This document shows, in pieces, positions 22,024-62,701 of a stretch of 64,000 nt of DNA. Positions within the stretch are counted from its first letter, which is position 1. Every line of letters starts with the position of its first letter. The stretch is from Arthrobacter sp. U41 (lineage in GTDB: Bacteria > Actinomycetota > Actinomycetes > Actinomycetales > Micrococcaceae): NCBI RefSeq assembly GCF_001750145.1, contig NZ_CP015732.1, forward strand, positions 868,001-932,000, given 5' to 3'. Below the pieces are notes generated by a model that had not been told where the DNA came from, did no database searches, and saw only the letters and a list, made by a program, of their open reading frames with translations. A program made the translations under genes and the position numbers.

Positions 22024-22714
22024 CACCGCCATAGGCGCGCACACCGCCACCCACACCGGCAGCAAGTCCGAGCAGGCCTATGCGGCCGTCAAGGCACGGA
22101 TCGTGGACGGGAGCTACTCCCCCGGCTACCGGCTGGTGCTGGCGAAGATCGCCGAGGATCTGGGCGTCAGTGTGGTGCCGGTCCGCGAAGCCATCCGCCG
22201 GCTCGAAGCCGAGGGCCTGGTGAAGTTCGAGCGGAATGTGGGCGCCACCGTGGCCGGCATTGACCCCACCGAGTACCTCTACACGATGCAGACCCTCAGC
22301 ATTGTCGAGGGCGCCGCCACGGCCTTGTCCGCTCCCCTCATCGACGCCGTAGCAATCGCCCGGGCCCGGGACGTCAACGCCGAGCTGCGCGAATGCCTGG
22401 AGCACTTCGACCCCGTCCGGTTCACCCGGCTGAACCAGGACTTCCACAGCATCCTGTTCGAGCACTGCCCCAATCCCCACATCCTGGACCTGGTCCACCG
22501 GGGCTGGAACCGGCTGGCATCCCTCCGCTCCTCCACGTTCCGTTTCGTCCCCCGCCGCGCCCATGAGTCGGTGGACGAACATGAGGCGCTGCTCCGGCTC
22601 ATCGAGTCCGGCGCCAGCGCCGACCAGATCGAAAAAGCCGCCCGCCTGCACCGCTCCGCCACCCTGGACGCCTACCTGGCCCAAAACAACGCGGGGTCAG
22701 ATAGCGCCCATTAA
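22016..22714 (+). CDS. GntR-family (FCD) transcriptional regulator
   Basis: With the ATG at 22016, which overlaps the end of the fusion gene by 8 nt, the protein is 232 aa. The winged helix is KSEQAYAAVKARIVDGSYSPGYRLVLAKIAEDLGVSVVPVREAIRRLEAEGLVKF (about 17-71), followed by an all-helical FCD effector domain with FHSILFEHC, HRGW and VDEHEALL. Its place inside the hpa operon makes it the likely regulator of homoprotocatechuate catabolism. The last codons and the TAA lie inside a 63-bp interspersed repeat starting at 22687, so the C-terminal residues (NNAGSDSAH) come from the repeat. Confidence 0.9.
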   Translation: MSDTAIGAHTATHTGSKSEQAYAAVKARIVDGSYSPGYRLVLAKIAEDLGVSVVPVREAIRRLEAEGLVKFERNVGATVAGIDPTEYLYTMQTLSIVEGAATALSAPLIDAVAIARARDVNAELRECLEHFDPVRFTRLNQDFHSILFEHCPNPHILDLVHRGWNRLASLRSSTFRFVPRRAHESVDEHEALLRLIESGASADQIEKAARLHRSATLDAYLAQNNAGSDSAH

Positions 22715-22749
22715 TGGGGCCCGCACGGGCCGTAAGTGACCCCGCGCTG
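22687..22749. repeat. 63-bp palindromic interspersed repeat, copy 1
   Basis: It begins CAACGCGGGGTCA and ends TGACCCCGCGCTG, near-perfect inverted termini, with a less conserved centre that keeps GATAGCGCCC on the left. The length is exactly 63 bp, as in the other three copies. This copy covers the GntR stop codon and the gap before hpaE. Confidence 0.85.
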
Positions 22750-22770
22750 CACTATCAGTAAGGAAAAACA

Positions 22771-24315
22771 ATGACGTTCACCGCCGAAGACGCTCAAACC
22801 CATTACGTCCCGCAGGACCTGACCACCCACATCCAGCACTACATCAACGGCGAATTCGTTGACTCCGTCAGCGGCCGGACCTTCGATGTGCTGGACCCGG
22901 TGTCCAACACCAACTACGCCACCGCGGCCGCCGGCCAGAAGGAGGACATCGACCTCGCCGTCGCCGCCGCCCGGGAAGCGTTCGTCAGCGGCCCGTGGCC
23001 GCGGATGAAGCCCCGCGAACGCGCCCGCATCCTGAACAAGATCGCGGACGCCGTCGAGGCCCAGGAGGACCGGCTCGCGGAACTGGAGACCTTCGACACC
23101 GGGCTGCCGATCACCCAGGCCAGGGGCCAGGCCCTCCGCGCCGCGGAGAACTTCCGGTTCTTCGCGGACCTGATCGTGGCCCAGTTCGATGACGCCATGA
23201 AGGTCCCCGGCGCGCAGATCAACTACGTCAACCGCAAGCCGATCGGCGTCGCCGGGCTCATCACGCCCTGGAACACCCCGTTCATGCTCGAGTCCTGGAA
23301 GCTGGCCCCCGCACTGGCCACCGGCAACTGCGTGGTGCTCAAACCCGCCGAGTTCACGCCGCTCTCCGCGTCCCTCTGGGCCCGGATCTTCAAGGATGCC
23401 GGCCTGCCCGACGGCGTGTTCAACCTGGTCAACGGCCTCGGCGAGGAGGCCGGCGACGCGCTCGTGAAGCACCCGGACGTGCCGCTGATCTCCTTCACCG
23501 GCGAAACCACCACCGGCCAGACGATCTTCCGCAACGCCGCGGAAAACCTCAAGGGCCTGTCCATGGAGCTCGGCGGCAAGTCACCGTGTGTTGTGTTCGC
23601 CGACGCCGACCTGGACGCCGCGATCGACTCGGCCCTGTTCGGGGTCTTCTCGCTCAACGGCGAGCGCTGCACCGCCGGGTCCCGGATCCTGGTGGAGCGC
23701 GCCGTGTACGAGGAGTTCTGCGACAAGTACGCCGCCCGCGCCAAAAACATCGTGGTCGGTGACCCGCACGACCCCAGGACCGAGGTCGGCGCCCTGGTCC
23801 ACCCCGAGCACTACGCCAAGGTGGCTTCCTACGTCGAGATCGGCAGGTCCGAGGGCCGGCTGCTGGCCGGCGGCGGGCGCCCGGACCACCTCCCCGAAGG
23901 CAACTACATTGCCCCCACGGTCTTCGCCGACGTCGCACCGGACGCCCGGATCTTCCAGGAGGAGATCTTCGGCCCCGTCGTCGCGATCACCCCGTTCGAC
24001 AGCGACGAGGAAGCGCTGGCGCTGGCGAACAACACCCGGTACGGCCTGGCGGCCTACATCTGGACCCAGAACCTGACCCGGGCGCACAACTTCTCGCAGA
24101 ACGTCGAAGCCGGCATGGTCTGGCTCAACAGCCACAACGTCCGGGACCTCCGAACCCCCTTCGGCGGCGTCAAGGCCTCCGGCCTCGGCCACGAGGGCGG
24201 CTACCGCTCGATCGACTTCTACACCGACCAGCAGGCCGTCCACATCACCCTCGGCACCGTGCACACGCCAAAGTTCGGCAGCGTCGAAGACGCCGCCGCC
24301 GGCGGCGACAGCTAA
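22771..24315 (+). CDS. hpaE: 5-carboxymethyl-2-hydroxymuconate-semialdehyde dehydrogenase
   Basis: The 514-aa protein is an aldehyde dehydrogenase. It has GVAGLITPWNTPFML, SFTGETTTGQTIF, the general-base glutamate in SMELGGKSPCVVF, and the catalytic cysteine in FSLNGERCTAGSRI. FGPVVAITPFDS and GGVKASGLGHEGG mark the C-terminal part. In this operon it would oxidise the ring-cleavage product of homoprotocatechuate to the corresponding tricarboxylate with NAD. TAAGGAAAAACA precedes the ATG. Specific assignment to HpaE rests on its position directly before the homoprotocatechuate dioxygenase gene; by sequence alone it is an ALDH of the HpaE/betaine class. Confidence 0.91.
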   Translation: MTFTAEDAQTHYVPQDLTTHIQHYINGEFVDSVSGRTFDVLDPVSNTNYATAAAGQKEDIDLAVAAAREAFVSGPWPRMKPRERARILNKIADAVEAQEDRLAELETFDTGLPITQARGQALRAAENFRFFADLIVAQFDDAMKVPGAQINYVNRKPIGVAGLITPWNTPFMLESWKLAPALATGNCVVLKPAEFTPLSASLWARIFKDAGLPDGVFNLVNGLGEEAGDALVKHPDVPLISFTGETTTGQTIFRNAAENLKGLSMELGGKSPCVVFADADLDAAIDSALFGVFSLNGERCTAGSRILVERAVYEEFCDKYAARAKNIVVGDPHDPRTEVGALVHPEHYAKVASYVEIGRSEGRLLAGGGRPDHLPEGNYIAPTVFADVAPDARIFQEEIFGPVVAITPFDSDEEALALANNTRYGLAAYIWTQNLTRAHNFSQNVEAGMVWLNSHNVRDLRTPFGGVKASGLGHEGGYRSIDFYTDQQAVHITLGTVHTPKFGSVEDAAAGGDS

Positions 24316-24349
24316 TCCCCGCACCCCCTTTAAAGGAAGAGAGAGCATC

Positions 24350-25435
24350 ATGACCAACTTCATCCCCAACCCCACCGTCCCGGCTCCGGACATCGTCCGC
24401 TGCGCCTACATGGAAATCGTCGTCACCGACCTCGCCAAGTCCCGCGCGTTCTACGTGGACGTCCTGGGGCTGCACGTGACCGAGGAAGACGAGAACAACA
24501 TTTACCTGCGCTCCCTGGAGGAGTTCATCCACCACAACCTGGTGCTGCGCAAGGGCCCGATCGCAGCCGTTGCCGCGTTCGCATACCGGGTGAAGTCCCC
24601 CGCCGAGGTGGATGCCGCGGAGGCCTACTACAAGGAGCTCGGCTGCCGTACCGAACGCCGCAAAGAAGGCTTCACCAAGGGCATCGGCGACTCCGTCCGC
24701 GTCGAGGACCCGCTGGGCTTCCCCTACGAGTTCTTCTACGAAACCGAGCACGTCGAACGCCTGACCCAGCGCTATGACCTCTACTCCGCCGGCGAACTCG
24801 TCCGTCTGGACCACTTCAACCAGGTCACCCCGGACGTCCCCCGGGGCCGCAAGTACCTTGAGGATCTGGGCTTCCGGGTCTCGGAGGACATCCAGGATTC
24901 GGACGGCGTCAGCTACGCCGTCTGGATGCACCGCAAGCAGACCGTGCACGACACCGCCCTCACCGGCGGCAACGGCCCGCGCATGCACCACATCGCCTTC
25001 GCCACCCACGAGAAGCACAACATCATCCAGATCTGCGACAAGATGGGCGCGCTGCGGATCTCGGACCGGATCGAACGCGGCCCCGGCCGCCACGGCGTCT
25101 CCAACGCCTTCTACCTCTACATCCTGGATCCGGACGGCCACCGCGTGGAGATCTACACGCAGGACTACTACACCGGCGATCCGGACAACCCCGTCATCAC
25201 CTGGGACGTGCACGACAACCAGCGGCGCGACTGGTGGGGCAACCCCGTGGTGCCGTCCTGGTACACCGAGGCCTCCCTGGTGCTGGACCTCGACGGGAAC
25301 CCGCAGCCGGTCATCGTCCGCGAGGATAAGAGCGAAATGGCCGTGACCGTGGGCGCCGACGGGTTCTCCTACACCCGCAAGGACGGTTCCCCTGAAGGAG
25401 ACAGGACGGGGTTCAAGCTCGGCGCGCAGCTCTAA
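24350..25435 (+). CDS. hpaD: 3,4-dihydroxyphenylacetate (homoprotocatechuate) 2,3-dioxygenase, probably Mn-dependent
   Basis: The 361-aa extradiol dioxygenase has two vicinal-oxygen-chelate modules. The metal triad known from the characterised Arthrobacter and Brevibacterium enzymes is present at identical numbering: His155 (RLDHFNQV), His214 (RMHHIAF) and Glu267 (DGHRVEIY). The second-sphere residues His200 (QTVH) and Tyr257 are also present. From memory the sequence is close to Mn(II)-dependent MndD of Arthrobacter globiformis, so manganese is the likely metal, although iron can serve in relatives. It opens the homoprotocatechuate ring next to the diol to give 5-carboxymethyl-2-hydroxymuconate semialdehyde, the substrate of the preceding dehydrogenase. 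AAAGGAAGAGAG precedes the ATG. Confidence 0.96.
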   Translation: MTNFIPNPTVPAPDIVRCAYMEIVVTDLAKSRAFYVDVLGLHVTEEDENNIYLRSLEEFIHHNLVLRKGPIAAVAAFAYRVKSPAEVDAAEAYYKELGCRTERRKEGFTKGIGDSVRVEDPLGFPYEFFYETEHVERLTQRYDLYSAGELVRLDHFNQVTPDVPRGRKYLEDLGFRVSEDIQDSDGVSYAVWMHRKQTVHDTALTGGNGPRMHHIAFATHEKHNIIQICDKMGALRISDRIERGPGRHGVSNAFYLYILDPDGHRVEIYTQDYYTGDPDNPVITWDVHDNQRRDWWGNPVVPSWYTEASLVLDLDGNPQPVIVREDKSEMAVTVGADGFSYTRKDGSPEGDRTGFKLGAQL

Positions 25436-25449
25436 CGTCCATCCCCTTG

Positions 25450-25481
25450 ACCGGTCCCGCATCCCAGGCTGCGGGACCGGT
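25450..25481 (+). terminator. Strong hairpin between hpaD and hpaH
   Basis: ACCGGTCCCGCA (25450-25461) pairs perfectly with TGCGGGACCGGT (25470-25481) around an 8-nt loop. It lies in the only sizeable gap of the operon's second half, so it may be a partial terminator or an mRNA stabiliser or processing site rather than the operon end. Confidence 0.6.
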
Positions 25482-25515
25482 TGCCCGTCCCACCGACTGA
25501 ACGGAACACGAACGA

Positions 25516-26301
25516 ATGCTTGAGCCCGCAACGATCGAGGCCATCGCGGATGAGCTGCTGGAGGCCGGCCGAAGCCGGACTCCGGTCCCCCTGCTGACCG
25601 CCCGCTATCCGGGGATGACTGTCGAGGACTCCTACGCCGTCCAGCAGCTCTGGCGGCGCCGCAACGAGAACGCCGGGCGGAAGCTGGTGGGCCGCAAGAT
25701 CGGCCTCACCTCCAAGGCCATGCAGGCCGCCACCGGCATCACCGAGCCGGACTACGGCGCCATCTTTGATGACATGGTGCTGGAGACGGGCTGCTCCGTG
25801 GAATGGGACAGGTATACCCATCCCCGGGTGGAAGTCGAACTGGCGTTTGTGCTGAAGAAGGACCTCACCGGCCCCGGCTGCACCATCTTCGATGTCCTGA
25901 ATGCCACCGACTACGTCATTCCGGCCCTCGAGATCCTCGATTCCCGGATCCAAATGGAGGGCCGGACCATCGTGGACACCATCTCGGACAACGCCGCGAT
26001 GGGGGCCATGGTGATCGGCGGCAACCCGGTCCGCCCCGATGCCGTGGACCTGCGCTGGGTCTCGGCCATCCTCTACAAGAACCAGACCGTGGAGGAAACC
26101 GGCGTCGCCGCCGGCGTCCTGGACCACCCCGCCAACGGCGTGCACTGGCTGGCCAACAAGATCGCCGCGCACGGGGACAGCATGAAGGCGGGCGACATCA
26201 TCCTGGCCGGCTCCTTCACCCGGCCGATGTGGGTGTACAAGGGCGACACCGTCCACGCAGACTACGGACCCCTGGGAGTTGTGACATGCCGCTTCGAATA
26301 G
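25516..26301 (+). CDS. hpaH: 2-oxohept-3-ene-1,7-dioate hydratase
   Basis: The 261-aa protein belongs to the hydratase/decarboxylase branch of the FAH superfamily (MhpD, XylJ, HpaH). It shows GRKIGLTSKAMQAATGI, the metal-binding acids in VEVELAFVLKKDL, ALEILDSR and TISDNAAMGAMVIG, and GDIILAGSFTRP at the C-terminus. It adds water to the oxo-heptene-dioate formed by decarboxylation, giving 4-hydroxy-2-oxoheptane-1,7-dioate for the aldolase whose gene overlaps its 3' end by 16 nt. Length agrees with the roughly 267 aa of E. coli HpaH. Confidence 0.93.
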   Translation: MLEPATIEAIADELLEAGRSRTPVPLLTARYPGMTVEDSYAVQQLWRRRNENAGRKLVGRKIGLTSKAMQAATGITEPDYGAIFDDMVLETGCSVEWDRYTHPRVEVELAFVLKKDLTGPGCTIFDVLNATDYVIPALEILDSRIQMEGRTIVDTISDNAAMGAMVIGGNPVRPDAVDLRWVSAILYKNQTVEETGVAAGVLDHPANGVHWLANKIAAHGDSMKAGDIILAGSFTRPMWVYKGDTVHADYGPLGVVTCRFE

Positions 26302-27095
26302 AACCTCAGAACACTTTCCGGGAAGCCCTGGCGGCGGCGGACCGTCCGCTGGCCGGGATGTGGATCTGCTCCGGCAGCCCCCTGGTGGCCGAACTCTGCG
26401 CCGGATCAGGCCTGGACTGGCTCCTGGTCGATGCCGAACACAGCCCCAACGGGCTCGAATCCATCCTCGCCCAGCTGCAGGCCATCAACGGCTACCCGGT
26501 CCACACCCTGGTCCGCCCGCCGGTGAACGACACCGTGCTGATCAAGCAGTACCTGGACCTGGGCGTGCAGAACCTGCTGGTCCCGATGGTGAATTCAGCG
26601 GCCGAGGCGGAGGCCGCCGTGGCCGCCACCCGCTACCCGCCGCACGGGGTCCGCGGCGTCGGCTCCGCCCTGGCGCGCGCCGCACGCTGGAACCGGATCC
26701 CGGACTACCTCGCCCGCGCCAGTGAGACCATCAGCGTCACCGTGCAGATCGAGTCCAGTGCGGCTGTTGACGTGGTGGAGAACATCCTGGCGGTCGACGG
26801 CGTGGACGCGATCTTCCTGGGGCCCTCCGACCTCGCGGCCTCCATGGGCCTGCTCGGCCAGCAGGAACACCCCGAGGTCCGGGCCGCCGTCGAACGTTGC
26901 CTCTCCGCCGCCCAAGCGGCCGGCAAACCCGCCGGCGTCAACGCTTTCATCCCCGCCACGGCGCGCCAGTACCTGGCCGCAGGGGCGGCATTTGTCCTCG
27001 TGGGCGCCGATGTGGCGCTGCTTGCCCGCGGCTCCGAAGCCCTCGCGGCCGACTTCATCGCTCCGGCCGACAACGACACCCCCGCAAGTTACTGA
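26286..27095 (+). CDS. hpaI: 4-hydroxy-2-oxoheptane-1,7-dioate aldolase
   Basis: The ATG at 26286 lies inside the end of hpaH; the product has 269 aa. It is a class II pyruvate aldolase of the HpcH/HpaI family: GMWICSGSPLVAELCAGSGLDWLLVDAEHSPN, the arginine in VRPPVND, metal-binding glutamate in QIESSAAVD and aspartate in LGPSDLAASMG. It splits the hydrated intermediate into pyruvate and succinate semialdehyde, completing the pathway to central metabolism. It is the last gene of the operon, followed within 6 bp by a copy of the 63-bp palindromic repeat, which could act as the terminator. Confidence 0.93.
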   Translation: MPLRIEPQNTFREALAAADRPLAGMWICSGSPLVAELCAGSGLDWLLVDAEHSPNGLESILAQLQAINGYPVHTLVRPPVNDTVLIKQYLDLGVQNLLVPMVNSAAEAEAAVAATRYPPHGVRGVGSALARAARWNRIPDYLARASETISVTVQIESSAAVDVVENILAVDGVDAIFLGPSDLAASMGLLGQQEHPEVRAAVERCLSAAQAAGKPAGVNAFIPATARQYLAAGAAFVLVGADVALLARGSEALAADFIAPADNDTPASY

Positions 27096-27100
27096 CGATC

Positions 27101-27163
27101 CAACGCGGGGTCACCTAGCGCCGGTAAAACCACCCGGGATGGGCGCGGAGTGACCCCGCGTTG
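27101..27163. repeat. 63-bp palindromic interspersed repeat, copy 2
   Basis: Termini CAACGCGGGGTCA and TGACCCCGCGTTG are perfect inverted repeats of 13 bp. The inner part (CCTAGCGCCG ... GGGCGCGGAG) is partly degenerate. It lies between the convergent ends of hpaI and a small membrane-protein gene. Confidence 0.85.
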
Positions 27164-27170
27164 CGGGGGG

Positions 27171-27569
27171 TCAGGCCGCGGCCGGCGCAGTCACGGACCG
27201 GGGGGCCGTCCGGGTCCGGAACCAGGTGGCCAGCTTCTTGCCCCTGCCCTTCCACCAGCTGTCCTCGTCACCGCCGTGGCGCCACCGGAAAGTCACCGCG
27301 ACCATCATGAAGACTCCGCCCGCGACGTCCTGCCACGTCCCGCTCGCGGCGTCGATCAGCACACTGACCCCGCAGATCAGGATCGAGGGCCAGGCCAGCG
27401 TGGTGAAGACGGTGTTGGCCACGTAGCGGCGGTGGGACCGCGGTACGGAAAGGGCCCGAACCATGTCGAAGCAGACACACACAACGACGATTGCCTGGCC
27501 CAGGGACAACAGGATCGAGCCCGTCAGCGATCCGGCGAACATGGCCAGGGCCTGCAGCCCGGAGTTCAT
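27171..27569 (-). CDS. Small membrane protein of unknown function
   Basis: The 132-aa protein has three hydrophobic stretches that are probably membrane helices: LQALAMFAGSLTGSILLSLGQAIVVVCVCF (two turns or one long helix), NTVFTTLAWPSILICGVSVLID, and QDVAGGVFMMVAVTFRW. The C-terminus is basic and aromatic (WWKGRGKKLATWFRTR) and likely cytosolic. No family is recognised. It is convergent with the hpa operon and upstream of nothing obvious on its strand; about 290 bp without a gene separate it from hspR. Codon use is like the neighbourhood, so it is probably a real gene. Confidence 0.68.
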   Translation of the reverse strand: MNSGLQALAMFAGSLTGSILLSLGQAIVVVCVCFDMVRALSVPRSHRRYVANTVFTTLAWPSILICGVSVLIDAASGTWQDVAGGVFMMVAVTFRWRHGGDEDSWWKGRGKKLATWFRTRTAPRSVTAPAAA

Positions 27570-27859
27570 GACCGGCCCGCGGTCAGTGCAGGTTCGGGCG
27601 CCGATTCACCCGGCGTAAATGGATCAAACATGCAGTGCCCCCCGGCTGTCCTCGCTGTTTCGCTGGCTGTGGCGCCAGTCTTTTATGCCAGGACAATTCA
27701 AACGGCCGGGCGGCCCGGAAGTCACGCAATCGCTGTACCCGTCTTTGCAGCCTGCGACTACCCGGATGCGGGCGCGGGTACTCGTTCCGCGGGCCGCGGA
27801 CTACGTGGACGGACCAGTGGACTTCTTGGAGGGGTGAAGGAACGCACAGCCCAGCGACG

Positions 27860-28282
27860 TTATTCGCTGTTCCGCGGCCTCCACACGACGACGGCCTGCG
27901 AGCGGGCGCGGGGCCGCTTGCCGCGGGCCAGGCTGACGACGTCGCCCGCGGCTCCGGCGGCGAAGATGCGGGATTCCAGGCTGCGGGGGCGGCGTTCGAG
28001 CTCCTCGCTTAGTTCGGTGACGCGGCGCTGCAGCGCGGCCACCTGGTTCTCCAGCTGGAGGATCCGTTTGATGCCTTCGAGGGAGACGCCCTCCTGCGAG
28101 AGCCGCTGCACCTCGCGGAGCATGTTGATGTCCCGCTGCGAGTAGCGGCGGGACTTGCCGGGGGCCCGGCTGGGCGAGACGATGCCCAGCCGGTCGTACT
28201 GCCGAAGCGTCTGGGGGTGCATGTCCGCCAGTTCCGCGGCCACGGAGATGACGAAGATCGGCTGCTCGAAGTCGATGGCCAT
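27860..28282 (-). CDS. hspR: MerR-family heat-shock repressor HspR
   Basis: The 140-aa protein has the MerR winged helix (VISVAAELADMHPQTLRQYDRLGIVSPSRAPGKSRRYSQRDINMLREVQRL, about 11-62) followed by a coiled coil (ILQLENQVAALQRRVTELSEELERRP). The MHPQTLRQYDRLGIVSP signature is typical of HspR. HspR represses the dnaK operon with DnaK acting as co-repressor, binding inverted repeats with TTGAG-N9-CTCAA symmetry; two such sites are present before dnaK. It is the last gene of dnaK-grpE-dnaJ-hspR, 15 bp after dnaJ, the standard actinobacterial order. Confidence 0.95.
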   Translation of the reverse strand: MAIDFEQPIFVISVAAELADMHPQTLRQYDRLGIVSPSRAPGKSRRYSQRDINMLREVQRLSQEGVSLEGIKRILQLENQVAALQRRVTELSEELERRPRSLESRIFAAGAAGDVVSLARGKRPRARSQAVVVWRPRNSE

Positions 28283-28297
28283 GGCAGGCGTCCGTTC

Positions 28298-29281
28298 CTA
28301 GAGCCTGGCCTTGGCTGCCAGTTCGGCGCGGACGTCCTCGCCGGCGGTTGCCGCGGCGAAAGCCTTGACGGCCTCCTCGGCTTCCTTGTTCAGCTTCCGC
28401 GGAACGGCGACGTCGATGGTCACCAGCAGGTCGCCGGTGGCCTTGGCATGCTTGACGCCGCGTCCCTTGACCCGGAGGGTGCGGCCCGACGGTGTACCGG
28501 CCGGGACGCGGACCTTGACCTTGTCGCCGTCGATGGTCGGAACCTCGATGTCGGCGCCCAGGGCTGCCTCCGGGAAGGAGACCGGGACATGGATGCGCAG
28601 GTTGTCGCCGTCGCGGACGTAAAAATCGTGCGGCTTCACCGAGACGGTGACCATAAGGTCCCCGTAGCCGGCCGGACCGTTCTGGCCCTTGCCGCGGACC
28701 CGGACCTTCTGGCCGTCCTTGATGCCGGCCGGGATGCGCACGTCGATGACTTCGCCGTCCGGTTCGCGAAGGCCGATGGTGGTCCCGCGGATGGATCCGG
28801 CGAAGGAGATGGAGGTCGACGCCGTCCGGTCCGCACCCTTCTGCGGTGCACGCTGGAAGGACTGGCCGCCGCCGAAGCCGCCGCCACCGCCGAAGAGGTC
28901 GGCGAACTCCGGCGGAATGCCGCCGGAGGTGCTGTAGCCGCCGGAATGGCGTCCGCCGCCGCCGGTGAAGAGCCCGCCAAAGAGGTCCTCGAAGCCCGCA
29001 CCGCCACCGGCCGCACCGCTGCCGCCGGGAGCGAACCGGGCTCCGCCGCCCATGGCCCGGATGGCGTCATACTGCTGGCGCTCGTCCGGATCGGAAAGCA
29101 CGGAGTAGGCCTCGGAGATGTCCTTGAACTTCCGCTCCGAAGCGGTGTCCCCCGCGTTGGTGTCCGGGTGGTGCTGCCGCGCGAGCTTCCGGTAAGCCTT
29201 TTTGATGTCGGCGTCGGAAGCGTCCTTGGCGATTCCAAGGATCTTGTAAAAGTCCTTGTCCACCCAGTCCTGGCTAGCCAA
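28298..29281 (-). CDS. dnaJ: DnaJ co-chaperone lacking the zinc-finger domain
   Basis: The 327-aa protein starts at a TTG at 29281 (AAAGGA upstream). The J domain spans residues about 9-73 with the HPD motif at 38-40. A long Gly/Phe-rich region (about 75-140, with GFEDLFGGLF and FADLFGGGGGFGGG) and the C-terminal substrate-binding domains follow. The four CxxCxGxG zinc motifs of classical DnaJ are absent, so it is a type II (CbpA/DnaJ1-like) co-chaperone. It stimulates ATP hydrolysis by DnaK and delivers substrates. It lies between grpE and hspR; the 94-bp gap before it holds a perfect 19-bp inverted repeat. Confidence 0.94.
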   Translation of the reverse strand: MASQDWVDKDFYKILGIAKDASDADIKKAYRKLARQHHPDTNAGDTASERKFKDISEAYSVLSDPDERQQYDAIRAMGGGARFAPGGSGAAGGGAGFEDLFGGLFTGGGGRHSGGYSTSGGIPPEFADLFGGGGGFGGGQSFQRAPQKGADRTASTSISFAGSIRGTTIGLREPDGEVIDVRIPAGIKDGQKVRVRGKGQNGPAGYGDLMVTVSVKPHDFYVRDGDNLRIHVPVSFPEAALGADIEVPTIDGDKVKVRVPAGTPSGRTLRVKGRGVKHAKATGDLLVTIDVAVPRKLNKEAEEAVKAFAAATAGEDVRAELAAKARL

Positions 29282-29307: not shown

Positions 29308-29364
29308 CGAGGTGACAGTTCGCGCCGATGTTTGGTCGAAACACGGGCGCGAACTGTCACCTCG
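29308..29364. repeat. Perfect 19-bp inverted repeat between grpE and dnaJ
   Basis: CGAGGTGACAGTTCGCGCC (29308-29326) is exactly complementary to 29346-29364, leaving a 19-nt loop. In the dnaK operon transcript this would be a very stable hairpin just ahead of the dnaJ ribosome binding site. It could be a dispersed REP-like element or an attenuator; no second copy was noticed in the window. Confidence 0.8.
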
Positions 29365-54527: not shown

Positions 54528-56569
54528 GCCCCGCACCCGTTATCATCGCCATCGACGGACGGTCCGGAGCAGGCAAGACCACCCTGGCGATCGAACTGGC
54601 GGCCCGGCTCCGCGAGCACCACAAGGTTTCCCTCTTCCATCTTGAGGACATCTACCCCGGCTGGAACGGACTCGCCGCCGGCATCGAACGCTACGTCTCA
54701 ACGGTTCTGGCCCCGCTGCACCGCGGTGCGCCGGCCGAGTGGGTCAGCTGGGACTGGAAGGCGCACTACGACGGCGACGTCCGCACCACCCAGCCCGCCG
54801 AAATCGTCCTTGTGGAGGGCGTGGGCGCCGCCGCGGAGGCCGCACGCCCCTTCCTTTCCGCGGTGATCTGGGTCGATTCGCCCGAACAGGACCGGCGCAC
54901 CAGGGCCCTGGCCCGCGACGGCGACAGCTACGAACCCTACTGGGACCAGTGGGCCGCCCAGGAGAAGGAGTGGCTGGCCGGGGACGACGTTCCCGCCCAG
55001 GCTGGTGTCAGGGTGCTGAACCTTGCCGACGGCGCCGCTCCGGCGGACGTGCTGCAGGCACTCCAGTACCTGCCGGCGCTGTCCCCGGTGCTGCTGCCGG
55101 AGCTGGCCGCCCGCCGTGGCCTCGAGCTCCGCGCCGAACGGATCGAGGCCGCGCCGGACCCTGCCCGGCTGTTCGAGTCCCTCTTCGGCCACTCGGCCAA
55201 CGCCGTTTGGCTCGATTCCTCCCTGCCGCCGGAAGGCGACGCGGCGGAACGGAGCCGCTTCAGCATCCTGGCGGACGACGGCGGCCCGTTCGGCCAGTCG
55301 GTCCGGCACAGTTCGGGCAAAACCCAGGTGAGCGTAGGCAACGCCCTGGTCCGGACCGAAGGGCCGTTCTTCCGCTGGCTGGACGGAGTCTGGGGCCGCC
55401 GCGCCCTCCGCGGCCCCGAGGGCTACCCCTGCGAGTTCACGCTGGGCTGGCTCGGCTACCTCGGCTACGAACTCAAACGTGAGACCGGCGGCAGCGACGT
55501 CACGGCCGAAACCCCGGACGCCTGCCTGCTGTTCGCCGGCCGGGCCGTGGTGCTGGACCATGTGGAGCGCGCGGTCTGGCTGCTGGCCCTGGACAGCGCG
55601 GACGCCGGGGACTGGCTGGAGACGGCCCGCGCCGCCGTCGAGGCATCAACCGGACACCCCGGGGCGGGCGGCGGCGCCGTCGAACCATCCGCCCCCGGCC
55701 ACGCCCCCCTGGACTTTGCCGCGCGGGACTCGGAAGTCTCCTACAAGTCCAAAATCACCGAGGCCCAGTACGAGATCACCGAGGGCAACACCTACGAGGT
55801 CTGCCTGACCACCGCACTGACCGCAGAGCTTCCCGCCGCCGCCCTGGACCCGCGGGAGGCCTACCTGGCACTGCGCCGGCGGAATCCCGCCCCGTTCGCC
55901 AGCTACCTGCGGTTCGGGGAGCTCACCGTGGCGAGCACCTCGCCGGAGCGTTTCCTGCGGATCGCGGCCGACGGCGGGATGCGCGCCGAGCCGATCAAGG
56001 GCACCCGGCACCGGGACGCCGATCCCGCCCGGGACGCGCTGCTGCGGCAGGAGCTCGAATCCTCGCCGAAGGACCGCGCCGAGAACATCATGATCGTGGA
56101 CCTGCTGCGCAACGACCTGAGTCACTTCGCCGTGCCCGGCTCGGTGTCGGTCAGCCGGCTCTGCGCGATCGAAAGCTACGCCACGGTGCACCAGATGGTG
56201 AGCACCATCGATGCCCGGCTCAGGCCCGGGATGCCCCGGGCCGAGGCCGTCGCGGCCTGTTTCCCTGCCGGGTCCATGACCGGCGCCCCGAAGGTCAGCA
56301 CCATGGCCATCCTGGACCGGCTGGAGGGCGCGCCCCGGGGTGTGTACTCCGGCGCGATCGGCTATTTCTCGCTCAATGGCGCGACCGACCTGGCCGTCGC
56401 GATCCGGACCCTCGTCCGCACCGAGCAGGCCGGCGGCCGCGCGGGACTCAGCCTCGGCGTTGGCGGCGCGATTACAGCGGATTCCTCCCCGCAGGAGGAG
56501 TACGAGGAAATCCGGACCAAGGCCTTCGGGGTCCTGTCGGCGCTCGGCGCGGAGTTCCCCGCCGGCTGA
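54524..56569 (+). CDS. pabB: Fusion of P-loop kinase-like domain and aminodeoxychorismate synthase component I
   Basis: The 681-aa protein has an N-terminal P-loop NTPase domain resembling uridine/nucleoside kinases (IIAIDGRSGAGKTTLAIELAARL, Walker A at 12-20; FHLEDIYPGWNGL; VLVEGVGA) over about residues 1-185. Residues about 200-680 form an anthranilate/aminodeoxychorismate synthase component I, with the chorismate-binding end SSPKDRAENIMIVDLLRNDLSHFAVPGSV, LRPGMPRAEAVAACFPAGSMTGAPKVSTMAILDRLE and GVYSGAIGYFSLNG. It aminates chorismate on the way to 4-aminobenzoate and folate, using ammonia from a PabA subunit not seen here. PabC lies one gene downstream. The role of the P-loop domain is unknown. 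Confidence 0.87.
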   Translation: MSPAPVIIAIDGRSGAGKTTLAIELAARLREHHKVSLFHLEDIYPGWNGLAAGIERYVSTVLAPLHRGAPAEWVSWDWKAHYDGDVRTTQPAEIVLVEGVGAAAEAARPFLSAVIWVDSPEQDRRTRALARDGDSYEPYWDQWAAQEKEWLAGDDVPAQAGVRVLNLADGAAPADVLQALQYLPALSPVLLPELAARRGLELRAERIEAAPDPARLFESLFGHSANAVWLDSSLPPEGDAAERSRFSILADDGGPFGQSVRHSSGKTQVSVGNALVRTEGPFFRWLDGVWGRRALRGPEGYPCEFTLGWLGYLGYELKRETGGSDVTAETPDACLLFAGRAVVLDHVERAVWLLALDSADAGDWLETARAAVEASTGHPGAGGGAVEPSAPGHAPLDFAARDSEVSYKSKITEAQYEITEGNTYEVCLTTALTAELPAAALDPREAYLALRRRNPAPFASYLRFGELTVASTSPERFLRIAADGGMRAEPIKGTRHRDADPARDALLRQELESSPKDRAENIMIVDLLRNDLSHFAVPGSVSVSRLCAIESYATVHQMVSTIDARLRPGMPRAEAVAACFPAGSMTGAPKVSTMAILDRLEGAPRGVYSGAIGYFSLNGATDLAVAIRTLVRTEQAGGRAGLSLGVGGAITADSSPQEEYEEIRTKAFGVLSALGAEFPAG

Positions 56570-56586
56570 CGCCGGCCGCGCGGGCC

Positions 56587-56616
56587 GCCGCAGGCGCACA
56601 CCCGCGCGCCTGCGGC
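56587..56616. terminator. Bidirectional terminator hairpin between pabB and the cardiolipin synthase gene
   Basis: GCCGCAGGCGC (56587-56597) pairs perfectly with GCGCCTGCGGC (56606-56616) around an 8-nt loop, in the gap between two convergent genes. The right arm touches the cardiolipin synthase stop. Confidence 0.7.
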
Positions 56617-58091
56617 TACTGCAGAGTGGCCGTCAGCCGTGCCACGTTGTCGACGTATTTGACGCCCATCGGCCGCTTCATCCAGTCCTCAAGGATCAGT
56701 TCCTTCGAGATCGCCCGGTAGGCATCCTCAACAGCGCTGATGCGCCGCACGATGTCCTCGCCCAGGAGCATCACCGAGACTTCCAGGTTCAGCGAGAAGG
56801 AGCGCATGTCCATGTTGCTGGAGCCCAGCACGGCCACGTCGTTGTCAATGGTGAAGTGCTTGGCGTGCAGCACAAACGGCGCCTGGTACAGGTAGATCCG
56901 CACCCCGGCCTCCAGCAGCGCCTCGTAGTAGGACTGCTGGGCGTGGTGGACCAGGAACTGGTCGCCCTTTTCCGAGACGAAGAGTTCGACGTCCACGCCG
57001 CGCTGCGCCGCCGTCGTCACCGCATACAGCAGGGAATCATCCGGGACGAAGTAGGGGCTGCAGATCGAGATTTTGCGCTGCGCCGAGTAGATCAGCGTGT
57101 TGAAGAGCCGCAGGTTGTTTTCGGTGATGAAGCCGGGGCCGCTGGGCACCACCTGCGCCGTGATGTTGCCGGCGTGCAGTTCGGGCCGGTGCGCGAGCTG
57201 GCCTTCCAGGGACTCGTCGGTTTCGCTGAGCCAGTCGGTGGCGAAGACGACGTTGAGCGTGGTGACGATCGGCCCGCGCAGGCACGCCATCAGCTCGACC
57301 CATTCGCGGCCCACTTTGCGGTGACGCGGGTTGTTGTAGGAGGGCTCGATCAGGTTCTGCGAACCGGTGAAGGCGACCTCGCCGTCGATCACCATGATCT
57401 TGCGGTGGTTGCGCAGGTCCGGCCGGCGCCACTGCCCCTGCAGCGGGTTCAGCGGCAACATGGGCCGCCAGCGGATCTTGCTGGCCTTGAGCCGGGCAAT
57501 GAGCCTGCGGTAGCCCTTGATGCGCAGCGTCCCCAGGTGGTCGAACAGCAGGCGGACTTCGACGCCGCGCTCTGCGGCTTCCTCCATCGCGGTCAGCAGA
57601 TCGTCCGTGATGTGGTCCGAGCTCATGATGTAGAACTCCGCGTTGACGAAGGATTCAGCTTCACGGACGGCGGCCGCCATGGCCTTGATCGAGTCCGGGT
57701 AACCGGGCAGGAGCTCCACGTGGTTGCCGTCCACCATGGGAAGGGAGCCCAGGGTCTTGTTCAGTTCCGCCGCGGAGGACACCCATTCCGGGCCCTCGTA
57801 GCTGCTTTCCAGCATCGCCAGTTCCGAGGCGCCGGCGCGCACCCGGGCGTTCACCGCATCCTGCTGCGACCGGCGCTTGCGGGAGAGCCGGAAATTGCCG
57901 AAGAGCAGGAAGAGGACCAGGCCCACGGCCGGAACAAAGAAGATGATCAACAGCCAGGCCATGGCCGTGGTGGGACGGCGGTTTCCGGGGATGATACCGA
58001 GGGCCAGCACCCGGATGGCGAGGTCAACCACAGTCAGAATCAGGATCACCCAGGACGGAAGTGTTTCCGCCAGGGAAAATGGCCACAGCAC
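56616..58091 (-). CDS. cls: Cardiolipin synthase (phospholipase D family)
   Basis: I choose the GTG at 58091 (GAGGGG 7 nt upstream), giving 491 aa; a TTG at 58148 would add 19 residues. Two N-terminal membrane helices (WVILILTVVDLAIRVLALGII; TTAMAWLLIIFFVPAVGLVLFLLFG) are followed by two PLD catalytic motifs: HRKIMVIDGEVAFTGSQN and HAKHFTIDNDVAVLGSSNMDMRSF, each with the HxKx4D signature. The enzyme joins phosphatidylglycerol molecules (or CDP-diacylglycerol) to cardiolipin at the membrane. It is convergent with the pabB fusion and divergent from pabC. Confidence 0.93.
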   Translation of the reverse strand: MLWPFSLAETLPSWVILILTVVDLAIRVLALGIIPGNRRPTTAMAWLLIIFFVPAVGLVLFLLFGNFRLSRKRRSQQDAVNARVRAGASELAMLESSYEGPEWVSSAAELNKTLGSLPMVDGNHVELLPGYPDSIKAMAAAVREAESFVNAEFYIMSSDHITDDLLTAMEEAAERGVEVRLLFDHLGTLRIKGYRRLIARLKASKIRWRPMLPLNPLQGQWRRPDLRNHRKIMVIDGEVAFTGSQNLIEPSYNNPRHRKVGREWVELMACLRGPIVTTLNVVFATDWLSETDESLEGQLAHRPELHAGNITAQVVPSGPGFITENNLRLFNTLIYSAQRKISICSPYFVPDDSLLYAVTTAAQRGVDVELFVSEKGDQFLVHHAQQSYYEALLEAGVRIYLYQAPFVLHAKHFTIDNDVAVLGSSNMDMRSFSLNLEVSVMLLGEDIVRRISAVEDAYRAISKELILEDWMKRPMGVKYVDNVARLTATLQ

Positions 58092-58184
58092 AGGCGAACC
58101 CCTCAAGTTCCAGACCCGCGGAATAGTTCCGGAACGGGCAATCTTCAAATCCTATCCCGCGGCCTGCCGCACTAAGCTGAAGCC

Positions 58185-59144
58185 ATGACTTCTCCTGCCC
58201 TTCCCGCCCCCGTCCCGGTGCTGGTCTTCCTGGATCCCGCCTTCGACGACGGCCGGCTGGCCGATGCGACCAAGCCGCAGCTGATGGCGACGGACCAGGG
58301 CGCCACCCGCGGCGACGGCGTCTTCGAGTCGCTGCTGGCAGTGGGCGGCCAGCCCCGCAAGCTCCAGGCACACCTGGACCGGCTGGCCGGGTCCGCCCGG
58401 CTGCTGGAGCTCGACATCCCCGCGGAGGGCGCCTGGCGCCGGGCCATCGCAACGGCGATCAGCGAATACCGGCGCCAGCATGCGCCCAGCGCCGCGGCCG
58501 TCAACGACGACGAACTGGTGGTCAAGCTCCTCGTGACCCGCGGCGTCGAGGGGGCGGCCGGGCCCACCTGCTGGGTCCAGGCCTCCGCCCCCGGCCCCAC
58601 CGGGAGACGCCAGCGCGAGACCGGCGTCGACGTCATCCTGCTGGACCGCGGCTATGACAGCGATGTCGGGGAACGGGCCCCGTGGCTGCTGATGGGCGCC
58701 AAGACCCTCTCCTACGCCGTCAACATGGCGGCCCTGCGCTACGCGCACCGCCAGGGCGCGGACGACGTCATCTTCACCTCCGCGGACGGCCGGGTCCTGG
58801 AGGGTCCGACGTCGACCGTTCTGCTCGCGCACCTGGAAACCTCCGACGACGGGGCCGGCGGGGTCCGCACCGTCCGCCGGCTCATCACGCCCCAGCTCGA
58901 CAGCGGGATCCTCCCCGGCACCTCGCAGGGAGCCCTGTTCACTGCGGCCAAGGCCGCCGGCTGGGAGCTGGGCTACGGCCCGCTGGAACCCCATGACCTG
59001 TACGACGCCGACGCCGTGTGGCTGATCTCCAGCATCCGGCTGCTGGCGCCCGTCAACCACATCGACGGCAAGGAAATCGGCACGCCGGAGCTGCGCCGGC
59101 AACTCACGGCGGAACTGAACGCGCTCTACGCCACCATCGAGTAG
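58185..59144 (+). CDS. pabC: Aminodeoxychorismate lyase (class IV PLP aminotransferase fold)
   Basis: The 319-aa protein has the fold-type IV pattern: TKPQLMATDQGATRGDGVFESLLAVGGQPRKLQAHLDRLAGSARLLEL at the N-terminus, the PLP lysine in GAKTLSYAVNMAALRYA, the glutamate-containing VLEGPTSTVLLAHL, and TPQLDSGILPGTSQGALF. Neighbourhood with pabB supports PabC, which releases pyruvate from aminodeoxychorismate to give 4-aminobenzoate; a D-amino-acid or branched-chain aminotransferase cannot be fully excluded. TAAGCT at 58173-58178 lies 6 nt before the ATG with no ribosome binding site, so the transcript is probably leaderless. Confidence 0.85.
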   Translation: MTSPALPAPVPVLVFLDPAFDDGRLADATKPQLMATDQGATRGDGVFESLLAVGGQPRKLQAHLDRLAGSARLLELDIPAEGAWRRAIATAISEYRRQHAPSAAAVNDDELVVKLLVTRGVEGAAGPTCWVQASAPGPTGRRQRETGVDVILLDRGYDSDVGERAPWLLMGAKTLSYAVNMAALRYAHRQGADDVIFTSADGRVLEGPTSTVLLAHLETSDDGAGGVRTVRRLITPQLDSGILPGTSQGALFTAAKAAGWELGYGPLEPHDLYDADAVWLISSIRLLAPVNHIDGKEIGTPELRRQLTAELNALYATIE

Positions 59145-59187
59145 TCCCGCCCCGCACCCACCCCAACGCCGACCACAACGCCGACCA

Positions 59188-59250
59188 CAACGCGGGGTCA
59201 CTTTGCGCCCGTCCGGAGGCCCCGGATGGGCGCTACGTGACCCCGCGTTG
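59188..59250. repeat. 63-bp palindromic interspersed repeat, copy 3
   Basis: Termini CAACGCGGGGTCA and TGACCCCGCGTTG are perfect inverted repeats; the inner GCGCCC and GGGCGC blocks are kept. It lies after pabC and before the SAM riboswitch region. Two short related units, ACCACAACGCCG, precede it in tandem. Confidence 0.87.
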
Positions 59251-59322
59251 CAGTTGGTCCCGTTACCTAACATGACGACGGCGGGTCTGCGGGCCGGCGT
59301 CGGAGGTGTTACGTTTTTTGGT

Positions 59323-59404
59323 GAGTAATGAGAACCGGCGCCAAGCCCTGACTGGCCGGTCGGCAACCCTCCCTTTCGCGGCGGGGTGCCTCAGGTGAAT
59401 ACTC
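59323..59404 (+). promoter_or_regulatory. SAM-IV riboswitch upstream of the metZ operon
   Basis: The conserved SAM-IV core is recognisable: a GAGTA (59323-59327) / TACTC (59400-59404) closing stem, then AATGAG, GCGCCAAGCCC, GGCCGGTCGGCAACCCTCC, GCGGGGTGCC and CAGGTGA in the expected order. SAM-IV riboswitches of actinobacteria bind S-adenosylmethionine and shut down methionine/sulfur genes. The DUF1737-rhodanese-metZ operon starts 48 bp after the stem, fitting this control. Confidence 0.88.
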
Positions 59405-59451
59405 GGCATATCGACCATTCGAGCTGCAAGCGTGAAAGAAGGAGATCCGTC

Positions 59452-59760
59452 ATGCCTGACGCGTCCGCCCCCGCTGTCCCCGGTACAGCACCAGCCCCGT
59501 CCCCCGCACTCCACGGGTCCGCCGAGGAGAAACTGGCGTACCGCCTGTTCACCGGCCCCGATGACCGCGCCTTCTGCGAGCGCGTCTCGGCCGCCCTGGC
59601 CGACGGCTACGTGCTGCACGGCAGCCCGGCAGCCACATTCAACGGCGGCAGCGTCATCGTGGCCCAGGCCGTCGTGCTGCCGGCGGCAATCGCCAGCGCC
59701 GACGCCGCCGTCGCCAACGCCGTGGATGATCTTGAGTTCGACGGCGAGGGCCACGCGTGA
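59452..59760 (+). CDS. Small DUF1737-like protein
   Basis: The 102-aa protein has a Pro/Ala-rich head and then the DUF1737-type core: KLAYRLFTGPDDRAFCERVSAALADGYVLHGSPAATFNGGSVIVAQAVVLP. This family is small and of unknown function; it is sometimes linked to sulfur or metal genes. AAGAAGGAG precedes the ATG. It is the first gene after a SAM-IV riboswitch and overlaps the rhodanese gene by 4 nt, so a role in methionine or sulfur transfer is likely. Confidence 0.82.
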   Translation: MPDASAPAVPGTAPAPSPALHGSAEEKLAYRLFTGPDDRAFCERVSAALADGYVLHGSPAATFNGGSVIVAQAVVLPAAIASADAAVANAVDDLEFDGEGHA

Positions 59761-60176
59761 GCTACGCCGGGGACCTCACCCCGCAGCAGGCCTGGGCCAA
59801 GCTCGAGGACGGCGCCATCCTGGTGGACGTCCGCACCGAGGGCGAATGGGCCCACATCGGCACCCCGGACACCGCCCCCGCAGGCGGGAAACGGAACGAT
59901 CCGCTCTTCATCCAGTGGAATCTTGCCGGAGGCATCCCCAATTCGCAGTTCGTTGCGCAGCTGAAACAGCAGGCCGCCGGCGCCGAAGGCAACGAGCTGG
60001 TGTTCCTGTGCCGTTCGGGTGCCCGTTCCATCGCCGCTGCGGTCGCCGCGACGGAGGCCGGCTACACCTCCTATAACGTCCTCGAAGGTTTCGAAGGCGA
60101 ACCGGACCGCGACGGCGAGCGCACTGTCAACGGCTGGAAGAACCGCGGCCTTCCCACCCAGTCCGGAAAGCACTAA
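59757..60176 (+). CDS. Rhodanese-like sulfurtransferase
   Basis: The 139-aa single-domain protein starts at a GTG overlapping the previous stop (GTGA). It has the rhodanese signatures AILVDVRTEGEWAHIGTPD and the active-site loop LVFLCRSGARSIAAA with the catalytic cysteine, then AGYTSYNVLEGFEGEPD. Rhodaneses carry persulfide sulfur. Located between the DUF1737 gene and metZ in a SAM-controlled operon, it may deliver sulfide to the sulfhydrylase; that is inferred from context. Confidence 0.93.
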   Translation: MSYAGDLTPQQAWAKLEDGAILVDVRTEGEWAHIGTPDTAPAGGKRNDPLFIQWNLAGGIPNSQFVAQLKQQAAGAEGNELVFLCRSGARSIAAAVAATEAGYTSYNVLEGFEGEPDRDGERTVNGWKNRGLPTQSGKH

Positions 60177-61385
60177 GTGAGCTTCAACCCTGACGCCGCC
60201 GGCTGGAGCGCCGACACCCAGGCTGTCCGCGGCGGACTCGACCGCACCGCTTTCCAGGAAACGTCCGAGCCGATCTTCCTGAACTCCGGCTTCGTCTACG
60301 AATCCGCGGCCGCCGCGGAGCGGGCGTTCACCGGCGAGGACGAGCGCTTCGTGTACTCCCGCTACGGCAACCCCTCGGTGGCCACCTTCCAGGAACGGCT
60401 CCGGCTGCTCGAAGGCACCGAGGCATGTTTCGCCACCGCCTCGGGGATGTCCGCGGTCTTCACCGCCCTCGGCGCCCTGCTGGCCGCCGGCGACCGTGTG
60501 GTCGCGGCCCGTTCACTGTTCGGCTCCTGCTTCGTGATCCTCAACGAAATCCTTCCCCGCTGGGGTGTGGAGACGGTCTTCGTGGACGGCCCGGACCTGG
60601 AGCAGTGGCGGTCGGCGCTCTCGGAACCCACGACGGCGGTCTTCTTCGAGTCGCCGTCGAACCCGATGCAGGAAATCGTGGACATCGCGGCCGTGAGCGA
60701 ACTGGCGCACGCCGCCGGGGCGACGGTCGTCGTCGACAATGTCTTTGCCACTCCCCTGCTGCAGCGCTGCGGGGACTTCGGTGCGGATGTGATCGTGTAT
60801 TCCGGGACGAAGCACATCGACGGCCAGGGCCGGGTGCTTGGCGGCGCGATCCTGGGCACGAAGGAGTTCATCGGGGGCCCGGTCAAGCAGCTGATGCGCC
60901 ACACCGGCCCGGCGCTCTCGGCCTTCAACGCGTGGGTGCTGACCAAGGGGCTGGAGACGATGGCCCTGCGGGTGAACCATTCCTCCGCCTCCGCGCTGCG
61001 GCTGGCCGGATGGCTTGAGGAGCAGCCCGCTGTCAGCTGGGTCAAGTACCCGCTGCTGCCGTCCCATCCGCAGTTCGAACTGGCCGCGCGGCAGATGAAG
61101 GCCGGCGGCACGGTGCTGACCTTCGAGCTCTCCCCGTCGGCCGGGCGTTCGGCGAAGGAAGCGGCCTTCGCGCTGCTGGATGCGCTGCGGATCATCGACA
61201 TCTCCAACAACCTGGGCGATTCGAAGTCCCTCGTCACCCACCCCGCGACCACGACCCACCGCGCCATGGGGCCCGAGGGGCGCGCGGCGATCGGGCTCAG
61301 TGACGGCGTGGTGCGCCTCTCCGTGGGCCTTGAGGACGTCGAGGACCTGATCCGCGACCTCGGCCAGGCGCTCAAGCAGGTCTAG
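60177..61385 (+). CDS. metZ: O-succinylhomoserine sulfhydrylase
   Basis: The 402-aa protein starts at a GTG directly after the rhodanese stop. It is a Cys/Met-metabolism PLP enzyme with TQAVRGGLDRTAFQETSEPIFLNSGFVYESAAAAERAFTGEDERFVYSRYGNPSVATFQERL, SGMSAVFTALGALLAAGDRVVAARSLFGSC, and the Schiff-base lysine in VIVYSGTKHIDGQGRVLGGAILG. SKSLVTHPATTTHRAMGPEGR near the C-terminus fits the MetZ group. It makes homocysteine directly from an O-acylhomoserine and sulfide. Control by the SAM-IV riboswitch upstream supports the methionine role. Confidence 0.93.
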   Translation: MSFNPDAAGWSADTQAVRGGLDRTAFQETSEPIFLNSGFVYESAAAAERAFTGEDERFVYSRYGNPSVATFQERLRLLEGTEACFATASGMSAVFTALGALLAAGDRVVAARSLFGSCFVILNEILPRWGVETVFVDGPDLEQWRSALSEPTTAVFFESPSNPMQEIVDIAAVSELAHAAGATVVVDNVFATPLLQRCGDFGADVIVYSGTKHIDGQGRVLGGAILGTKEFIGGPVKQLMRHTGPALSAFNAWVLTKGLETMALRVNHSSASALRLAGWLEEQPAVSWVKYPLLPSHPQFELAARQMKAGGTVLTFELSPSAGRSAKEAAFALLDALRIIDISNNLGDSKSLVTHPATTTHRAMGPEGRAAIGLSDGVVRLSVGLEDVEDLIRDLGQALKQV

Positions 61386-61416
61386 CTAGGGCCGGTCCGG
61401 TACGCCGGCTGGGAGG

Positions 61417-62601
61417 TCAGCCCCGGCGGACCCGGCCCAGGGACGAGCCCTCGTCGGCAGGGTCCCCGATGGCGGCTCCCCGCATGGTCACTTCGACGGC
61501 GTGTTCGACGACGGCGGCCAGCCCGCCGGACCGGAACGGTGCCCGTTGCAGCTGCGAACCGGTGCCCTCCGCCAGGATCCGGCCGACGCCCTCACGCACC
61601 AGGTCCAGCTCACCCTGTTCCTCCAGCACGGGGGCCAGGAAGTCCACCAGCGCCTGGACCACGTCCGCGGCCGGGGCTGGGGTAAAGGTTCCGAAGTCCA
61701 GCAGCTGCCCGCGCAGCCCGCAGTTGCTGGCCTGCCAGGCTGCCATCCGCAGCAGCAGCGTCGGCACCGGGGCGGGATCGATGCCGTCGTTCCATTCCCG
61801 GGACGCCGACTCCACCAGCGCCCGCACCAGCACGGCGATCACCGCCGCGTCCTCGGCCCGCAGGCAGACATCGGCGACCCGCACCTCCACGGTGGGATGA
61901 TGCCGGCACAGCCGCGAGTCGAAATAGATCATCCCCTCGTCCATCAGGACGCCGCTTTCCACCAGCCGGGTCACTACCCTCCGGTACACCGGAAGGCTGC
62001 CGAAGATCATCGTCGGACCCGAGCCAGGCCAGCGGTTCCACGCCTGCGTACGGTAGCTTTCGAACCCTGTCTCCGCGCCGTTCCAGTAGGGGGAGTTCGC
62101 GCTGAGGGCGATCAGCACGGCGAGCTTGTCCCGGATCCGGTCCATCACCGCCACGCCCTCCTCCGGGGACTCCACGAACGTGTGGACGTGGAGCCCGCAG
62201 GTCAGCTGGTTCCGGACCGTGAGCCCGAAGCGCCGCTGCATGGTCACATAGCGCTGCTTCGGCGTCAGGTGCGTGGCGGAGCCGTGCGGCGAGGTGGCGA
62301 GGGCGGCGACCCGGCCGCCATGCACCCGGGCGGCGCGGTCGGCGAGGGCCCGGCCCTGCCGGAGCTGGCGGAGCAGTTCGGTGTAGTCCAGGCACGGCCG
62401 CGTCTGGGTTTCAATCTGTTCGAGCTTGAGCTCGAAGCTGAAGTCGGAGTCCTCATGGACCTGCTGCCAGGCCGGGTCGGCCGGATCGGCGGCCTGCCCG
62501 GACGGGACCAGGCTGGGGATCATGACATCGGCGAGGGCAAGCAGCATCCCGGTCTCGGGATCCACAATGAGCAGTTCTTCCTCCACGCCGAAGGTCCGCA
62601 T
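61417..62601 (-). CDS. Carboxylate-amine ligase (YbdK / glutamate-cysteine ligase type 2 family)
   Basis: The 394-aa protein begins [25 protein letters not shown] and belongs to the GCS2 family: [116 protein letters not shown], and [35 protein letters not shown]. These enzymes join an amine, such as cysteine, to the gamma-carboxyl of glutamate using ATP. The exact product (gamma-glutamylcysteine or another) is not settled for the family. It lies convergent to metZ. Confidence 0.92.
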
Positions 62602-62638
62602 GAATCTATTGTGCGTCAGGTTCCGCCGAAAAGCTCAA

Positions 62639-62701
62639 CAACGCGGGGTCAGATAGCGCCCACGCAGAGCCCCCGGATGGGCGCTATCTGACCCCGCGTT
62701 G
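62639..62701. repeat. 63-bp palindromic interspersed repeat, copy 4
   Basis: This is the most symmetric copy. CAACGCGGGGTCAGATAGCG at the left is complementary to the right end, giving an inverted repeat with arms of about 24 bp and a short degenerate centre. It lies between the start of the ligase gene and the end of the murA-like gene. Confidence 0.9.

Follow-up and report, generated by a model that had tools for sequence, protein, structure and literature searches.

Gene-end palindromes of fixed length in Arthrobacter are probably cognate sites of a predicted AbiEi-Vsr nuclease

The 4.79-Mb genome of Arthrobacter sp. U41 carries a family of short palindromes with constant ends which, judging from sequence comparison and domain prediction, probably serve an AbiEi-Vsr nuclease as dispersed cognate sites that it would spread and homogenise. 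We regard the pairing of nuclease and palindrome as very likely, an action of the nuclease on the palindromes as likely, and a causal part of the nuclease in their spread as somewhat favoured, the last two as read from sequence patterns and a predicted domain structure. Together these observations point to an apparently unreported repeat-plus-enzyme system, which resembles REP/RAYT without being a member of it.

The window, by which we mean the whole 64,000-nucleotide stretch analysed (C1:868001-932000), holds four copies of the palindrome, which we call type A. An earlier note on this DNA gave their positions and a length of exactly 63 bp, all of which were confirmed: copy 1 (22687..22749) lies between two co-directional genes, copy 2 (27101..27163) between convergent genes, copy 3 (59188..59250) 3' of the plus-strand gene at 58218-59144, and copy 4 (62639..62701) between two minus-strand genes. 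Copy 1 overlaps the end of its upstream co-directional open-reading frame by 28 bp and supplies the stop codon (22712-22714). The shared ends are CAACGCGGGGTCA and TGACCCCGCGTTG, from which copy 1 departs by one base (GCGCTG), as had been described; the inner GCGCCC/GGGCGC pair ascribed to the family is complete in copies 3 and 4, whereas copy 1 has GGGCCG on the right and copy 2 has GCGCCG on the left. A fifth palindrome at 29308..29364, previously overlooked, has the same layout but different ends (CGAGGTGACA ... TGTCACCTCG) and a 57-bp paired core; we assign it to type B, although its three outermost bases per side differ from the CGC/GCG of other type-B copies. At the Rfam gathering score none of the window palindromes was matched, and only SAM-IV, elsewhere in the window, reached its score; copy 3 is overlain by one sub-threshold Rfam match.

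The guess that many more copies would exist in the genome proved right, and with it the concern that the four might stand alone falls away: both 12-bp ends at 63-bp spacing (≤3 mismatches in total) occur at 62 places, against 0 for a reversed control pattern in the same genome, which is far above chance. Exact 11-bp ends with a free spacer of 24-52 were found at 57 places, and among the 50 of these listed the length was 63 bp in 48 and 62 bp in 2, whilst a covariance model gave 139 strand matches, equal to 70 places, for 69 of which flanks were retrieved. Of 61 genus genomes 38 contain type A, and in the family 16 of 245 genomes do so, drawn from 3 of 32 genera; the sister types, built alike but bounded by different ends, were found in 20 (type B) and 30 (type D) of the 61, and 55 of the 61 carry A, B or D. 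The 117 matches listed from a named collection belong to Arthrobacter, Pseudarthrobacter, Paenarthrobacter and other Micrococcaceae, save one Verrucomicrobia genome (MAG L257), which fits the end pattern around a non-palindromic interior and was rejected as a chance match. A viral origin was likewise dismissed, the viral contig L182 fitting the ends without being palindromic inside.

The anatomy of the repeat was measured on 61 full type-A copies (122 arms). Conservation reaches at least 98% at arm positions 4-13 and 20-22 and 87-93% at positions 23-25, whilst the 6-bp linker (positions 14-19) varies, its two arms covarying beyond random arm pairing at five of six positions (four with p < 0.001 and one with p 0.009; at position 16, which is mostly T, the excess was not significant). 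Arm-to-arm matching at positions 26-31 is at chance level, so that the pattern of conservation and covariation describes a stem of ~25 bp around a 13-nt centre, free in sequence and fixed in length. No two copies are nearly identical, the best pair having 33 of 37 interior letters in common. Such constancy of the ends at scattered sites, with interiors that drift, points to a trans-acting factor working on the ends. Two relatives show paired changes at matching sites, conserved ends included (L100 vs. L134; L108 vs. L151), and in two others (L178 vs. L179) the right arm is identical and the left arm diverges as one block. A lineage-specific inner stem, CTTATGGCC, is found in G039 and G211.

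The earlier note proposed a search for a RAYT/Y1 transposase or another mobilising gene. Of 61 genus genomes one contained Y1_Tnp (PF01797), and the U41 genome did not, in a search that returned matches in 5 of 14 control genomes; the second part of the proposal yielded a candidate. Possible mobilisers were sought among the genes between closely spaced copies in the genome (C1:253082, 809064 and 2596984); those with a Pfam match were of housekeeping or metabolic types and were set aside, with one exception. This gene (C1:253160-254083) encodes a 308-aa protein and lies between type-A copies at C1:253082-253144 and C1:254144-254205. Its product is predicted to fuse an AbiEi-antitoxin-like N-terminal module, whose domains were recovered in the protein, to a Vsr/EDxHD (homing-endonuclease-like) domain with a Vsr-like fold and conserved E, D, H and D catalytic residues, the EDxHD motif name being our own assignment. 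A PDB search with the single nuclease sequence gave no match and a PDB profile search gave only 3hrl (E 0.0063); in NCBIfam no match exceeded the cut-off. Members of the family are annotated as hypothetical, DUF559 or 'very-short-patch-repair endonuclease', and within the order a match occurs in 119 of 149 genomes sampled.

The arrangement of a nuclease gene between palindromes recurs well beyond this locus. Forty loci of related nuclease genes had a palindrome on both sides in 23 cases, on one side in 10 and on neither in 7, the upstream one ~50-96 bp before the coding match and the downstream one within ~45 bp of the stop codon, with ends that vary from clade to clade; the named loci L235, L247 and L274 each carry type-A palindromes on both sides of the gene. 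Under one fixed test, a palindrome pair with matching ends flanked 32 of 73 nuclease loci (31 of 71 once the repeat retrievals L301 and L302 are dropped), compared with 0 of 292 control genes from G039 stretches; the same test found 2 of 394 genes in U41's own element-bearing stretches. Matched pairs extend to other families of the order (e.g. L350, L358, L360, L363 and L368). L350 is probably Brachybacterium, by the identical protein P0121, and a Brachybacterium-like genome repeats the nuclease-palindrome pairing with different ends. L356, L370 and L372 also pass the test but look weaker. Among Arthrobacter plasmid copies a matched pair could be seen by eye in two of three, and in the fetched stretches of the U41 genome, which also contain one dispersed type-E copy, a further nuclease paralogue is enclosed by a type-E pair.

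Specific pairing of nuclease clades with palindrome types was assessed on 71 aligned nuclease loci, counting L023 and L332 as one. A palindrome lies within 200 bp in 58 of the 71, on both sides in 42 and as a matched pair in 37, whilst 13, including most of one clade, have none within that distance. Nucleases of similar sequence have similar palindromes: a common palindrome 8-mer was present in 188 of 194 pairs of nucleases at least 60% alike vs. 75 of 1459 pairs less than 60% alike. On the nuclease tree the six types of 37 typed loci require five changes, which is the minimum, with support of 100 for the type-A group, 98 for type D, 100 for type E and 90 for type B; types were set by end motifs chosen after the data had been seen, because single-linkage on shared 9-mers had lumped types together by chance, and L337 is probably mistyped. 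The dispersed copies follow the same division. Type A numbers at least 10 copies (median 18) in each of the 18 genomes with a clade-1 nuclease (≥71% identity) and has a median of 0 in the other 43; type D numbers at least 2 (median 10) in each of the 13 genomes with a clade-2 nuclease (56-62% identity), against 0 in the other 48. The crossed comparisons over the 61 genomes, clade 1 with type D and clade 2 with type A, showed no association (p 0.53 and 0.99), all these p values ignoring shared ancestry. There are counter-cases, nine genomes that lack clade 1 still carrying at least 10 type-A copies and eight that lack clade 2 still carrying at least 5 of type D, and a seven-member nuclease clade (L328-L331, L341, L345 and L346), part of which occupies the clade-2 locus, has no palindrome of a cognate type. 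Palindromes with the ends of the nuclease flanks occur dispersed in G370 (4 in 200 kb) and G306 (1 in 200 kb), and none was found in the sampled 140 kb of G368 or 120 kb of G410; two matches in G350 were both discarded as GC-rich chance hits, and the off-diagonal chance matches in this comparison numbered three.

Comparison of matching sites in relatives revealed the presence/absence differences that the earlier note had suggested looking for. The copy-1 site, inside a gene cluster, carries the element in 7 of 26 relative loci and a spacer without it in 15; one has another gene inserted and three could not be joined. Copy 3 is found at the same place in G014 (L153), and at the copy-4 site relatives show the element as present, absent or a remnant. 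Fourteen G211 copies were compared with G039 stretches, which did not cover four; the ten matched sites comprise five shared, one empty, one scar, one with another hairpin and two rearranged. The scar keeps the outer letters of both arms, and absence can therefore also mean loss; a clean empty site was not found in the relatives compared.

The placement at gene 3' ends or between genes, as originally described, held across the genome: using our own ORF caller, 69 copies lie between convergent genes (29), between tandem genes (35), in divergent gaps (4) or inside an open-reading frame (1), at a median of 14 bp past the stop codon (65 measurable copies). Outward flanks are T/G-rich; on either side T makes up roughly half of the letters at +2 to +5, tandem contexts included, and T runs are mostly of 1-3 T. 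Flanks and position suggest that the copies may double as bidirectional terminators, and an explanation that stops there, in which the palindromes are ordinary bidirectional intrinsic terminators whose shared ends are a habit of the lineage with no partner enzyme, can also claim the stem covariation and the different hairpin at the same site in a relative (L106 vs. L141), and would itself favour gene ends. We nevertheless consider it unlikely: termination calls for no constant 63-bp length and no near-invariant ends, copy 1 falls within an operon that in relatives lacks a hairpin at this point, and pairing of clades with one gene family is not predicted. The objection that these are ordinary terminators is half right, in that the flanks look terminator-like, but it leaves the fixed ends, the fixed length and the pairing unexplained, and a terminator role can be true as a side function of the palindromes. 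Improbable too is the proposal that they are AbiEi-type autoregulatory operators, the dispersed copies serving that protein as regulatory sites without being spread by it. The AbiEi-like module and the palindrome upstream of the nuclease gene fit such a regulon, and the promoter of AbiEi reportedly contains inverted repeats to which the protein binds (PMC7319586); however, the dispersed copies sit after genes with few in divergent gaps, a second palindrome lies 3' of the nuclease gene, and a regulator would have no use for a nuclease domain.

Presence/absence between relatives and inverted ends would equally suit a non-autonomous MITE-like element moved by some DDE or other transposase, with the nuclease link secondary, yet direct repeats in the flanks of 62 copies were at chance level, giving no sign of a target-site duplication, no near-identical copies exist and the clade-specific nuclease flanks go unexplained, making this very unlikely. 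A true REP/REPIN family spread by a RAYT (Y1) transposase, which short, dispersed, intergenic, hairpin-forming palindromes call to mind, has next to no probability, since the repeat is far more widespread in the genus than Y1_Tnp; the ends and flanking letters also lack a GTAG or CGTC tag. What stands of the REP-like description first given is the genome-wide hairpin family at gene ends, its presence/absence and its partner gene; the RAYT does not. In Neisseria, DNA-uptake words form inverted pairs at gene ends that act as terminators, and the conserved inverted word, the gene-end position and the terminator-like flanks are shared here; but lone half-sites occur at 2 places only in 533 kb, each beside a full element, the two ends keep a fixed spacing and there is a partner nuclease, so that an origin as uptake words is hardly credible.

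If the palindromes are indeed cognate sites of the nuclease, its AbiEi-like module would bind the conserved arms and its Vsr-like domain would nick or cut at the palindrome, as duplex, cruciform or hairpin. Repair of the break could then copy the palindrome from site to site, seeding new copies and homogenising old ones, such that ends and length stay fixed whilst the loop drifts; copying of this kind would account for the lineage-specific inner stems, the replacement of arms and the slow spread. Survivors would lie mainly just past stop codons, where they may be harmless or useful as bidirectional terminators. The catalytic fold and the E, D, H and D residues are those of Vsr and of the EDxHD homing endonucleases (I-Bth0305I), but the partner protein has the additional AbiEi-like module and its gene lies between palindromes, not in an intron, with many dispersed sites. 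In contrast to the AbiEi antitoxin of type IV toxin-antitoxin systems, the module is here fused to a predicted nuclease, and palindromes occur also downstream of the gene and throughout the genome.

The closest parallel is REPIN/RAYT, which likewise combines many short, dispersed, intergenic palindromes with conserved ends and hairpin-forming capacity, a partner gene flanked by the repeats and several independent enzyme-repeat pairs; it differs in having a Y1/HUH transposase in place of the AbiEi-Vsr nuclease, and in its GTAG/CGTC end tag, absent here; a fixed 63 bp with a free centre is a further difference. RAYTs are single-copy and vertically inherited (PMC8049555), and here too the partner gene is kept at one locus: the clade-1 gene occupies one syntenic locus in 18 loci, which makes the system look long resident and not newly arrived. 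Among the papers listed in our literature search, most subscription papers lying outside it, none connected palindromic repeats with these ends or with Vsr/DUF559/MTES_1575 genes.

More broadly, we lean slightly towards the view that Actinomycetes contain many independent AbiEi-Vsr enzyme-palindrome pairs, several per genome, in which domesticated homing-endonuclease-like proteins maintain, spread and convert gene-end palindromes, a second and unrelated REPIN-like invention that would work by break repair and not by transposition. To our knowledge, Y1 transposases were previously the only enzymes known as partners of short dispersed palindromes. If our reading is true, the REPIN way of life could be reached by another path, through a Vsr/homing-type nuclease, in a genus nearly without Y1 transposases, and a large family now annotated as hypothetical, DUF559 or a repair endonuclease would gain a role. 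The several enzyme-site pairs with distinct specificities are directly testable at the bench, and the question of why bacteria keep such repeats would become testable in a new system.

Lone half-sites of the type-A palindrome were confined, in 533 kb of sequence, to G000:C1:502765 and 599933 (L051, L052), where the extra partial arms adjoin full copies and look like local duplications. Genes for the Y1 transposase (PF01797), the RAYT-type enzyme expected under a REP/RAYT reading, were found among 61 genomes of the genus at two loci only (L096, L097), both in a single genome, G032.

At the copy-1 site (window 22687-22749), four loci of relatives lacking the element (L077, L079, L082, L085) carry recurring short ACTTGTACG/ACTAGTACG-like words, which occupy the spacer that holds the palindrome in other relatives and are possibly another small repeat. 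Within the window, copy 3 (59188-59250) is followed shortly on its 3' side by a SAM-IV riboswitch (59324-59438, 88 bits), and copy 4 (62639-62701) is immediately adjoined by a tandem 9-bp repeat of six CAGCGGATT-like copies (62706-62777).

A version of the predicted AbiEi-Vsr nuclease gene without palindromes lies at the same locus as the type-D-associated nuclease (L328, L329, L330, L331, L344), and U41 itself has one member of this group, at C1:113488. Different palindrome families were present in two further genomes, with ends CGACGAGCGTCTCTG in G306 (L377-L382; 6 copies in 200 kb) and GAGTTGTCAGGC in G368 (L397-L403; 6 copies in 140 kb).
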